Below are positions 568-64,000 of a DNA stretch of 64,000 bases, one piece after another (position 1 is the first letter of the stretch; the number at the start of each line of letters is the position of its first letter). Position numbers and translations under genes: made by a program. Source of the DNA: Tetradesmus obliquus (taxonomy: Eukaryota > Chlorophyta > Chlorophyceae > Sphaeropleales > Scenedesmaceae); NCBI GenBank assembly GCA_030272155.1, contig CP126205.1, positions 2,468,501 through 2,532,500 on the forward strand, read 5' to 3'. A model generated the notes under the pieces. That model ran no database searches and was not told the DNA's origin. It saw nothing but the letters and a program-made list of their open reading frames with translations.

Positions 568-2258
568 ATGCCGCTCACTACAGCAGGCCTCATCAGCGGC
601 TGGACGTACCCTCTCCGCGGTATTTTAATTCTCTCGAAGGCGCCCGAGCTCCGTAGCAAGGTCAGCCACTTCCTGATCAGCATCACAGCCACCTCTGCTG
701 CCACCAGTGCAGCGTGGCTGTGGTTCTTCTACAGCCGCCATGTGCAGTTCATCTCCCAGCTATTTGGCATGGCAGGAGGCAGCTTGCTGGCCCATTTTGC
801 AGCTGGGGTGGTAGTGCTGGCAGAGTCAACGCTACCAGTGTACCTACTGTTCTCCAGGCAGTTTAACCAGCTGCAAGGACAGCTGTTTGATGCCACGCTG
901 CAGCTGCAAGGCGTCACAATCTCCCCAATGCAGCCCAAAGAACAGCAGGCACTGGCAGCAGCAGTGTTCCAGCTGCAGCAGCAGCGTGCCGCCGCAAAAG
1001 CAGCAGCAAAGGAGGCCTGGCGCAAGGGTGGTCTCGCCAGCAAGGCAACACAGCTACTGCTCGGAGGCGTGACAGACATCGGATCCTTTGCTACTCAGCT
1101 GCTGCTCAAGCCGCAGCCGCATGGGGAGGGTCTGTTGGTGCGTGAGGCACGGAGCCTCATCACTGCTGCTGCTGGCGCGCTGCTGCCGCCGCTGCTGCCG
1201 CTGCTGGCGCTGCGTGACAGCGGCGCTGCTGCGGTGCGGCTGCTGTCAAAGTACTGGGACCGCAAGGGCGTGCCGCGCGATGCAGGTGAGGGGCTGGTTT
1301 TTTGCAGGTATTGTTGCTGGTTGATGTTGAGTGTGTTTGCGCTCTGCATGTAGTTCTGCAGCAACATTTGAGCAGCCATGCATGCGCTGTTCACCAGGAC
1401 CATGCGCAGCATGGAAGCAGCACAGATGATGTGTCCACCTGCATTGTTGCCAGGCGGCTCCTGCTCAGCGTTCATCATACGCAATGCTAGGTCACTCGTG
1501 GCCTGGCAGCGCTCTGGCGAGCTGCGCAGCTTCAGGATGCTCAACCTCCTCCTTGTTCAACTTCCCTCTTGCTCATCCACACACCGCAACATTGCTGCCC
1601 TGCTGCCTGCAATGCACTGCAGACTCGCGGTCCCTTGTAGCCATGCAGCGCTCCTGCGCGCTGCGCAGCTTTGGCCTGGTGGCTGCAGTTGCACCACGGG
1701 CTGCTGAATGTCAAACCTACTGTACCTCTGCCCTGCCGCCTGCAATGCACTGCAGATTCACGGTCCCTTGTAGCCAAGCAGCGCTCTGGCGAGCTGCGCA
1801 GCTTCGGCCTGGTGGCCGGCACCCTTGGCGGCCTGCCCTGCTCGCCTGGTTCCTGGGGCTGAGTAACATGAACTTCACCGCACTTCTTCTCTGCTGCACT
1901 GCAGACTCTCGCTCACTTGTGGCCAGGCAGCGCTCTGGAGAGATGCGCAGCTTTGGGCTGGTTGCCAGTGGGTTGGCATGGCTGCCGTTGCATAGCATGC
2001 TGCTCAATGATGACTGCTGTATCCCTTTCCTGTTGCCTGCCATGCACTGCAGACTCTCGCTCCCTTGTGGCCAAGCAGCGCTCTGGCGAGCTGCGCAGCT
2101 TCGGCCTGGTGGCCGGCACCCTTGGCGGCCTGCCCCTGCTAAACTGGTTCCTGGGCTTGAGCAACATGGTGGGGGCGGCACTGCTGGCGGCTGACATGGA
2201 GAAGAAGCGGGGGCCGGTGTTTGTGGGGCATGCTAGCGCCCCGTGGGGTGCACACTAG
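568..2258 (+). CDS. EI24/RRT8-like multi-pass membrane protein
   Basis: Two-exon model: 568-1285 and 2053-2258, total 924 nt, 307 residues. Exon 1 ends at a GTGAGG donor in phase 1 and exon 2 follows a CTGCAG acceptor; the join stays in frame to TAG at 2256-2258. The protein opens with TTAGLISGWTYPLRG, followed by hydrophobic segments around residues 31-55, 65-95 and 190-215, and ends with a segment containing LRSFGLVAGTLGGLPLLNWF and then a short basic stretch (MEKKRGP). This order (YPxxG start, large internal loop, final segment plus 'GAALLAADMEKK') resembles the EI24/etoposide-induced and yeast RRT8/LDS (lipid-droplet/outer spore wall) family, which are integral membrane proteins of the ER or lipid droplets; exact function is unknown. 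The intron contains four decayed copies of exon 2, so the true acceptor is inferred from the only copy whose frame stays open. Convergent with the MYND pseudogene downstream. Confidence 0.65.
1487..1968 (+). repeat. Four decayed tandem copies of the EI24-like last exon inside the intron
   Basis: Copies of the start of exon 2 (coding DSRSLVAKQRSGELRSFG or close variants) lie at about 1487-1545, 1601-1681, 1730-1870 and 1885-1968, ahead of the intact copy at 2033-2258. Spacing is about 130-150 bp. Three copies keep the CTGCAG acceptor in front. The third extends furthest but is shifted out of frame at the 'LPLLNWF' position and ends in a stop. Divergence between copies argues against a sequencing or assembly duplicate. 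Confidence 0.8.
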
Positions 2259-2309
2259 CTCATCTGCCAGCAGCAAGAGTGATCGATGCATGCGACTGGC
2301 AGTGCGACA

Positions 2310-63300: not shown

Positions 63301-64000
63301 GCTGTGGTGCTTGCGCCCACGCGTGAGCTGGCGCAGCAGATTGAGGAGGAGACAGTGAAGCTGGCCAAGTACACAGACTTCAAGTAAGTGCGCCGCGCCT
63401 GCTGTTGCATTATAATTGTGATATCCCGAGCTATGTGCATGCATGGTAGCTGTGCAGCAGATTGAGGAGGAGACAGTGAAGCTGGCCAAGTACACAGACT
63501 TCAAGTGAGTGTGTTGCTTGTGCTGCTGCCTCAAGAGCAGTAGAAGATTTGTACATGCGTGTGTTTTGTGCATCAAGTTGAGGAGGAGACGGTCAAGCTG
63601 GCCAAGTACAAAGAACTTTAAGCAAGTCGCTGCTGCTGCCTCGCATCAGTCGAAGCCATGTGTGCTTGGCTGTGGCCTTCATTTACATGCTCAGTGTCAC
63701 CCGAGCCCTCCGAGTGGCGAACATAGCAGTAACCATCTTAATCACCATTGTAAGCCTCCCATCTGCAGTCCGTTGCATTGCATGCTGCAACTGGCTCCGA
63801 CTTGAATGCACACACTGCTACTGCTCATCCGCACTGCGCTCCTCTGCTGCAGGGTGACATCGGTGGTGGGCGGGCAGTCGATTGAAGAGCAGGGCAGCAA
63901 GCTGCGCCGCGGCTGCGAGATTGTCATTGCAACACCCGGCCGCCTGCTGGACTGCATCGAGCGCCACTACTGCGTGCTGAATCAGTGCAACTACGTGGTG
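57001..64000 (+). CDS. PRP28: PRP28/DDX23 spliceosomal DEAD-box RNA helicase (5' part)
   Basis: Twelve exons are visible: 57001-57281, 57907-58159, 58672-58731, 59344-59463, 59728-59835, 60234-60357, 60605-60684, 61064-61180, 61494-61649, 62602-62785, 63290-63383 and 63853 to the window edge. They give 575 codons with all phases consistent. The N-terminus is an Arg/Ser/Asp-rich RS-like domain ([12 protein letters not shown]), as in human DDX23. Then come [39 protein letters not shown] and [18 protein letters not shown], all typical of PRP28. The helicase core shows the Q motif (KPSPIQ), motif I AETGSGKT, motif Ia APTRELAQQ, motif Ib GG and TPGRLLD. PRP28 helps exchange U1 for U6 at the 5' splice site. 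The DEAD motif and second RecA domain lie beyond the window. No ATG upstream in frame improves on 57001. Confidence 0.93.
57346..57390. repeat. (CAG)n microsatellite in PRP28 intron 1
   Basis: About 15 CAG triplets in the intron after the RS-domain exon. Just beyond it, at 57508-57530, is a copy of the exon 1 end with its GTGGG donor. Confidence 0.85.
58186..58274. repeat. (AGC/GGC)n microsatellite in PRP28 intron 2
   Basis: About 90 bp of AGC triplets with GGC at regular intervals, shortly after the donor at 58160. Open in several frames but not coding. Confidence 0.85.
59601..59647 (+). repeat. Acceptor-side copy of PRP28 exon 5
   Basis: GCTTGCAG acceptor followed by [17 protein letters not shown] sequence, upstream of the intact exon at 59728. 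It is directly joined to the dynein-derived fragment at 59646-59706. Confidence 0.85.
59646..59706. other. 61-bp fragment matching a dynein exon
   Basis: This segment matches 18628-18688 of the dynein gene over its whole 61 bp with only about five or six differences and no net length change. Dynein reads leftwards, so the fragment is antisense to PRP28; its minus-strand translation keeps [12 protein letters not shown], as in the dynein exon. It sits exactly at the end of the duplicated PRP28 exon-5 fragment. Confidence 0.85.
60092..60777 (+). repeat. PRP28 exon 6 acceptor copy and exon 7 donor copy
   Basis: 60092-60160 repeats the exon 6 start (VVKASEKFR) with an acceptor and then a stop, upstream of 60234. 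60741-60777 repeats the exon 7 end ([10 protein letters not shown]) with GTGCGC donor, downstream of 60684. Confidence 0.85.
61252..61766 (+). repeat. PRP28 exon 8 and 9 junction copies
   Basis: 61252-61293 repeats the exon 8 end (DKYDGFDMT with GTGAGC donor). 61341-61404 repeats the exon 9 start ([15 protein letters not shown]) with a CCGCAG acceptor. 61722-61766 repeats the exon 9 end ([11 protein letters not shown]). Each lies on the expected side of its parent exon. Confidence 0.87.
62467..63040 (+). repeat. PRP28 exon 10 copies on both sides
   Basis: 62467-62530 repeats the exon 10 start (CAG acceptor, then a [12 protein letters not shown] sequence that shifts frame). 62961-63040 repeats its end, including [15 protein letters not shown] and DESNYAG with a GTACGA donor. 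The intact exon at 62602-62785 lies between them. Confidence 0.87.
63454..63626 (+). repeat. Two donor-side copies of PRP28 exon 11
   Basis: 63454-63510 repeats [17 protein letters not shown] with a GTGAGT donor; 63577-63626 repeats [17 protein letters not shown] sequence. Both follow the intact exon ending at 63383. Confidence 0.88.

Follow-up and report, generated by a model that had tools for sequence, protein, structure and literature searches.

The introns of the green alga Tetradesmus obliquus contain many short copies of the ends of the exons beside them, and we attribute these copies with confidence to tandem duplication of units that span a single splice junction. We studied them in a 64,000 nt stretch of contig CP126205.1 (G000:C15:2468501-2532500, hereafter the window) of the 104.66 Mb, 17-contig genome, which holds genes for an EI24-like protein, a dynein, a PAP2 protein and Prp28, and in 20 further loci (L002-L021). 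The full reading, in which the spare copy is skipped by splicing and drifts in the intron, and in which the duplication often took place between diverged homologues, is the one we consider on balance probable; its last element, unequal exchange between diverged homologues, we put forward as a hypothesis to account for an excess of synonymous differences between exon and copy.

Exon-end copies and their position

Junctions and repeat pairs were counted in a 260 kb sample, made up of 26 pieces of 10 kb (window positions 1-60000 and the further loci). These pair statistics omit the window's final 4 kb (pieces <5 kb were dropped) and pairs spanning piece borders; copies in those last 4 kb rest on a low-complexity-filtered comparison of the whole window with itself and on inspection. 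Gene models came from a purpose-written gene finder, self-trained on the window and the further loci in a damped version, as plain self-training drifted to an excess of short introns and was rejected. The models were checked in part against Pfam families and relatives of solved structure. Pfam supported PAP2, dynein motor (AAA_6, Dynein_heavy), MYND finger and DEAD/DDX23 proteins in the window, and at E ≤ 0.001 gave no match for the protein starting at 51.7 kb or for the EI24-like protein, the name of which comes from an earlier note on this DNA (hereafter the original prediction). The closest solved structure to the window dynein was chain 8glv_JG, which we take to be a Chlamydomonas axoneme structure. 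Pairs were dropped before the junction counts where the homologous exon part was <15 bp, where the exon extended <10 bp beyond the block or where the period was >320 bp.

Within the window's first 60 kb, 34 of 36 exon-end pairs, representing 34 copies at 28 exon ends, obeyed a strict side rule: copies of an exon's 5′ part lay upstream of it and copies of its 3′ part downstream. Both the rule and the number of copies (>30 in the window) had been claimed in the original prediction, and the rule extended to all 21 sequences, where it was followed by 119 of 135 pairs (60 acceptor, 75 donor). The same prediction held that the copies carry the matching splice site, and in the 119 side-obeying copies AG was kept in 50 of 51 and GT in 56 of 68. 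Seven of the 16 exceptions to the rule have homology running >100 bp past the junction, i.e. they lie within long arrays, and both window exceptions (junctions 16836 and 21059) sit on predicted exons without a counterpart in the dynein relative and so look like copies mistaken for exons. The side rule follows from geometry, since duplicating a unit in tandem with one junction inside it can only place the surplus exon end on the side of that junction; it is evidence of tandem duplication in units of one junction each rather than of a targeted process, and it holds no further information. Altogether, 157 in-gene repeat places were found, 99 of which touch one exon junction, 22 are internal to an exon, 6 cover a whole exon and 30 overlap no predicted exon, and the side-obeying copies fall at 95 of the 798 modelled junctions in the sample.

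The repeats are local and direct. Comparison of the window with itself gave 71 matches, 70 direct and one palindrome, with 57 direct and one inverted match <1 kb apart and none at a distance of 1-4 kb. Across the 26 pieces there were 269 direct and 3 inverted matches <500 bp apart and none in a Markov-resampled control (one per piece), as expected of internal tandem duplication, where copies of a gene part lie adjacent in direct orientation. The pattern was present in 15 of the 20 further loci, on 14 of the 17 contigs, and was not seen in L002, L003, L004, L008 and L018, of which L003, L008 and L018 were empty also at a looser cut-off.

Periods cluster around a preferred size. As self-BLAST is blind to units below ~55 bp, the lower size edge was re-tested with Tandem Repeats Finder (TRF) and with an ungapped diagonal scan of periods 15-299, which placed 152 of 324 places at 100-149 bp, only 10 in a trough at 50-79 bp and 41 below 50 bp. 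TRF, which requires near-complete tandem copies, put 181 of 219 arrays below 30 bp and only 22 at 90-199 bp, implying that the 100-150 bp class mostly no longer forms, or never formed, full tandem arrays. The period was a multiple of three in 31 of 119 pairs, which is no bias.

The copies are not preserved as coding sequence. Nine extra segments accepted by the gene finder were counted in two dynein stretches, and against 8glv_JG all of them were unaligned or competed for one stretch of it; one extra segment of Prp28 lay outside the alignment to human Prp28 (3jcr_F), an alignment that did not reach the copy at 61260 and so does not judge it. Of 38 gaps within exon copies, 35 were not a multiple of three, and with the absence of the extra segments from the solved relatives this indicates that coding function is not maintained. 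Mutually exclusive or alternative exon duplication, in which a whole exon is copied with both splice sites and its frame, is likewise a poor description of these gaps and of the 6 in 157 places that cover a whole exon. Differences between exon and copy were not clustered (dispersion 1.10, 55 pairs), and the copies are of mixed age, as originally noted.

Homology past the splice junction

Multi-copy arrays that include intron sequence had been described in the original prediction, and seven were found in the window (Table 1), but this is not the general form, as in 30 of the 43 pairs of ≥90% identity the homology ends ≤15 bp past the splice site. Such a short reach was seen in 84% of 25 pairs of 90-95% identity and in 50% of 18 pairs above that. 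At ≥90% identity the exon side matched at 0.80-0.97 over its last 30 bp, whilst the intron side matched at ~0.5 at 11-20 bp and at 0.35-0.45 beyond 50 bp, with donor-side splice cores (+1 to +6) at 0.86-0.96. In two arrays the outermost copy was closer to the exon than the array was to itself at one period (97 vs. 79% in dynein 21288-21625, 93 vs. 87% in PAP2 50005-50712), which speaks against one simple event.

The intron flank was homologous at z > 2.5 in 50 of 119 pairs, weakly so in part of the rest, and in others no homology was seen. Among 60 pairs that looked exon-limited, 26 had intron-flank homology at p ≤ 0.1 compared to 13 in a displaced-flank control; at ≥90% identity the numbers were 12 of 28 pairs compared to 3, and the flank p-values of the 60 pairs departed from uniform at p = 5e-7, compared to 0.08 for the control. 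As the displaced control itself exceeds the 6 pairs expected at p ≤ 0.1, part of this signal is composition. The weak homology nonetheless suggests that at least some of the exon-limited-looking pairs are full tandem duplications with drifted introns. In the 32 pairs where both parts could be aligned, exon blocks differed by 10.4% and introns by 19.9%, with 8.5 gaps per 100 bp. Recombination between haplotypes with wholly unrelated introns was rejected as a source of the diverged flanks, as the introns of clear tandem copies, a set selected for alignability, diverge about as synonymous sites do (0.144 vs. 0.168).

Synonymous excess

The copies had been called decayed, and the frameshifts agree with this, but the differences between exon and copy are more synonymous than neutral decay predicts. 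In 86 pairs (side-rule exceptions and pairs with >60 bp of homology past the junction were dropped before codon counts) we found 254 synonymous and 215 nonsynonymous differences, a nonsynonymous share of 0.458 (95% confidence interval (CI) 0.41-0.50). The share was 0.36 in pairs of ≥90% identity (68 synonymous, 39 nonsynonymous; CI 0.28-0.46), 0.42 in the intermediate class and 0.54 below 85%; it was 0.43 in the dynein pairs alone (68 and 52; CI 0.36-0.50) and 0.48 in the 58 pairs outside the window (156 and 145; CI 0.41-0.55). Simulated junction-spanning duplications followed by neutral decay, passed through the identical pipeline, gave 0.58-0.65 (872, 1500 and 900 simulations). For the last two of these sets we chose the size and indel-length settings ourselves and took the ratio of indels to substitutions from the observed intron-flank alignments.

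A synonymous divergence of 0.1-0.2 already present before duplication brought both the simulated nonsynonymous share and the simulated intron reach nearer to the data: the share became 0.37-0.47 (0.62-0.65 without it), and homology ended ≤15 bp past the junction in 0.36-0.49 of simulated pairs at ≥90% identity, compared to 14-29% without earlier divergence (17-29% for the 90-95% class).

Several other sources of the synonymous excess were discarded. Mutation bias leaves an expected nonsynonymous share of 0.54-0.60 after transition, CpG and composition effects (transition/transversion ratio 1.06 in noncoding copies; CpG observed/expected ratio 0.53-0.56), frameshifts count against selection on translated copies, and gene conversion alone was set aside by argument, since it should raise and not lower the nonsynonymous share. 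No intron outgroup was to hand in the window's own gene pair (4097-8306 and 9200-13008), which matches in islands, or in the dynein paralogues, which match exon by exon. One paralogue (G000:C7:2136698-2136992) matches window positions 21202-21508, comprising exon, spacer and nearest copy, at 70%.

Origin of the copies

We propose that short tandem duplications, typically of 100-170 bp per unit, are frequent in this genome and that those spanning exactly one splice junction may survive, because the exon retains one complete copy and splicing presumably skips the spare. The spare would then drift in the intron and accumulate frameshifts, and unequal exchange between copies could extend some into arrays. 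Such units might arise, by one established route, from a staggered break of which both overhangs are filled in. Duplication may often have brought together gene versions that had diverged earlier, either by unequal exchange between homologues or by later replacement of the exon with a diverged allele, which would give exon differences rich in synonymous changes and intron flanks that were already diverged and rich in indels. Several observations weigh against this account. A synonymous divergence of 0.1-0.2 before duplication is very high within one species. No simulated setting gave a short reach in more than 54% of the 90-95% class, where 84% was observed, and the nonsynonymous share below 85% identity (0.54) exceeds the 0.41-0.47 simulated with added divergence. 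At p ≤ 0.05 the 60 exon-limited-looking pairs hardly rise above the displaced control (15 vs. 11), and in some pairs of 97-100% exon identity the introns are not significantly homologous. Pairs outside exons likewise have homologous blocks much shorter than the period: at ≥90% identity the median ratio of block to period was 0.40 at 41 exon places, 0.26 at 10 intron-only places and 0.41 at 10 places outside gene models. Finally, in L019:2627-2959, where three exon-end copies and two inner spacers are each 100% identical, the outermost copy has no spacer, which a first tandem duplication would not leave.

Tandem duplication across an exon-intron border, as originally proposed, thus stands in so far as the copies are local, direct and limited to a single junction with the intact exon kept, but plain neutral decay fails three simulated comparisons. 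Duplication within one chromosome followed by such decay of copy and intron would explain the full-length arrays and some near-identical tandem copies (L015, L019), and below 85% identity simulation at the observed indel rate gives a similar intron reach, yet it overshoots the nonsynonymous share, overall and at ≥90% identity, and underestimates the frequency of short reach in the 90-95% class. Rescuing it would take a synonymous rate in canonical exons ~2.5 times that of neutral DNA (an estimate from difference counts), and we regard it as unlikely. The synonymous excess and the conserved donor cores of the ≥90% pairs could instead reflect function, with copies serving as alternative or decoy exon ends under purifying selection; against this stand the frameshifting gaps, periods unbiased towards multiples of three, the absence of the ten extra segments checked from the relatives and several 5′-end copies that by eye have no GT at the inner end, and we consider such a role very unlikely. 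Assembly error or collapsed haplotypes seems extremely improbable: nothing was found in its favour, exon and copy are separated by many differences, none of the three spacers searched had a second source and the pattern recurs across most of the loci and contigs sampled.

Exon ends could also be copied as such by a process that stops at the splice junction and seeds introns genome-wide, for example when intron breaks are repaired on nascent transcripts, or when exon-limited gene conversion prevents copy and exon from diverging whilst the intron drifts, the synonymous excess then recording exchange with diverged alleles; we think this quite unlikely. A narrower version, in which an intron break is patched with 30-100 bases of the adjacent exon end through nascent RNA or template switching, so that the spacer is old and the exon end new, is decidedly unlikely. 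It would fit the frequent halt of homology 2-8 bp past the junction, three young pairs with spacers that have no other match in the genome, the L019 array without an outer spacer and the Prp28 pair 59601/59719, the spacer of which is mostly an antisense dynein exon fragment. There, positions 59646-59709 match dynein exon positions 18628-18691 (91% over 64 bp), and this foreign fragment abuts the exon-end copy within two bases, as if one repair event had brought both. On the other side, a spliced-RNA template was rejected as no excess match to the neighbouring exon was found, the window has no match at 1-4 kb and only 3 of 272 near matches are inverted, part of the pairs show weak intron homology, blocks are short relative to the period outside exons as well, and the synonymous excess is not explained by patching alone.

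Comparison with known duplications and introns

Eukaryotic genes are reported often to carry short internal tandem duplications (Gao and Lynch 2009, as cited in PMC3443670 and PMC4974935), and the T. obliquus copies are alike in being short tandem duplications inside genes. They differ in being dense in the sampled genes and of a 100-150 bp class, and new introns are not their usual outcome. In models of intron gain by tandem duplication, as outlined in the same two articles, duplication similarly supplies a second splice site, and in a potato case the duplication included a piece of intron-exon structure (PMC4974935). In T. obliquus the complete exon seems to go on using its own splice site, and the copy defines no new intron. 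A link to intron gain of the Rogers type, where the period equals the intron length with splice sites at corresponding points, was not borne out, as only 1 of 86 copies had its splice site ≤5 bp from the far intron end. Introns with a copy (n = 92) had a median length of 233.5 bp and those lacking one (n = 307) a median of 237 bp, a weak test of intron growth since the gene finder splits some introns at copies.

Small tandem duplications ascribed to staggered-break fill-in, described in PMC8355091 as short (<100 bp) insertions in the human genome, resemble the copies in being direct, head-to-tail and local, a likeness judged on orientation and size alone, whereas the units here are mostly of 100-170 bp. 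Green algae are among the lineages with introners according to PMC9860276, and introners likewise add sequence to introns; here no common element was seen, as none of the three spacers searched matched elsewhere in the 104.7 Mb genome at E ≤ 0.1 (one had a second copy in its own array, and simple repeats and very common words were skipped), and spacers as a mobile element were rejected on the same grounds. In the titles and abstract openings of the open-licence papers listed in our searches we found no account of such exon-end copies in green algae. If the sample is representative, copies in the genome would number in the tens of thousands; they would form a rich natural archive of short tandem duplication, with a preferred unit size for any repair mechanism to explain, and a large supply of putative spare splice sites. 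Should the synonymous excess be real, the copies would also record allelic diversity that predates the duplications.

Copies and other repeats in the window

Table 1 Exon-end copies and arrays in the window (positions of the window; empty cells, none given).
Position (strand)	Feature	Identity	Period (bp)	Remarks
1490..2168 (+)	Array of 5′-end copies before last modelled EI24-like exon		133, 282	Self match and exon model
14474..14557 (-)	3′-end copy of dynein exon 14654-14844, with 5′ splice site	92%/84 bp	174	Homology ends 6 bp into intron; absent from 8glv_JG
16173..16220 (-)	5′-end copy of dynein exon 15986-16104, with 3′ splice site	90%/48 bp	113	
16760..16843 (-)	5′-end copy of dynein exon modelled 16503-16689	93%	122	Not aligned to 8glv_JG; true 5′ end of exon probably near 16714
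17128..17227 (-)	3′-end copy of dynein exon 17264-17494	89%/100 bp	133	Not aligned to 8glv_JG
18293-18344, 18411-18468 (-)	Two 3′-end copies of dynein exon 18573-18848	88%	269, 155	18293-18344 is a gap against 8glv_JG
21031..21104 (-)	3′-end copy of dynein exon 21203-21355	77%/79 columns	169	Not aligned to 8glv_JG
21424..21625 (-)	Two tandem 5′-end copies of dynein exon 21203-21355, intron included	Outer 97%; 79%/206 columns	263; 136	One 8glv_JG stretch serves all three
22975..23086 (-)	5′-end copy of dynein exon 22761-22929	83%	123	
24733..24991 (-)	Two 3′-end copies of dynein exon 25118-25294	24915-24991 90%; 24733-24786 80%		Nearer copy (24915-24991) has 17 bp of intron in common with exon flank; not aligned to 8glv_JG
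25363..25443 (-)	5′-end copy of dynein exon 25118-25294	93%/81 bp	144	
26378..26413 (-)	Copy of first 34 bp of dynein exon 26198-26315, plus AG	97%	96	Spacer without second match elsewhere in genome
27248..27301 (-)	5′-end copy of dynein exon 26974-27169	89%	130	
29625..29683 (-)	5′-end copy of dynein exon 29363-29545	88%	133	
35025..35081 (-)	5′-end copy of dynein exon 34750-34928	93%	148	
48064..48298 (-)	Two 5′-end copies of PAP2-gene exon 47822-47985	94%, 88%	145, 311	
50005..50424 (-)	Two tandem copies, with intron, of 3′ part of PAP2-gene exon 50577-50740	87%	278	Outer copy 93% to exon
52766..53279 (+)	Array beside exon 52721-52818		130-132	Self match
54441..54649 (+)	Two tandem 5′-end copies of exon 54725-54904	84-89%	140, 280	
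57477..57528 (+)	3′-end copy of exon 57027-57281	83%	240	Exon taken to be N-terminal part of Prp28 gene
59601..59647 (+)	5′-end copy of Prp28-gene exon 59728-59835	94%	118	
61260..61292 (+)	3′-end copy of Prp28-gene exon 61064-61180, with gtgag	33/33 identical	107	Spacer without second match elsewhere in genome
62960..63044 (+)	3′-end copy of Prp28-gene exon modelled 62602-62785	94%/85 bp	249	Segment outside the alignment to human Prp28 chain 3jcr_F
1595-2168, 15243-15569, 21288-21625, 47919-48298, 49615-50712, 52766-53279, 54441-54789	Arrays with intron included		132-166, 263-311	

Window G+C ranged from 53 to 60% per 2 kb, and CTG/CAG triplet runs were abundant throughout, by eye often ahead of 3′ splice sites. 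Eight identical 42 bp units occupy positions 3579-3916, where no predicted exon overlaps them. The tandem gene pair at 4097-8306 and 9200-13008 is glutamine- and alanine-rich, at least one member carries a MYND finger, and its matching islands share 73-93% identity. Other repeat types were met in the further loci: a 4,282 bp tandem unit at 100% identity over at least 5.7 kb in L018:1-10000, a satellite-like array with units of ~274-279 bp in L017:1-3959 and a dispersed repeat with tens of genome matches at 78-87% in L020:5574-5699.

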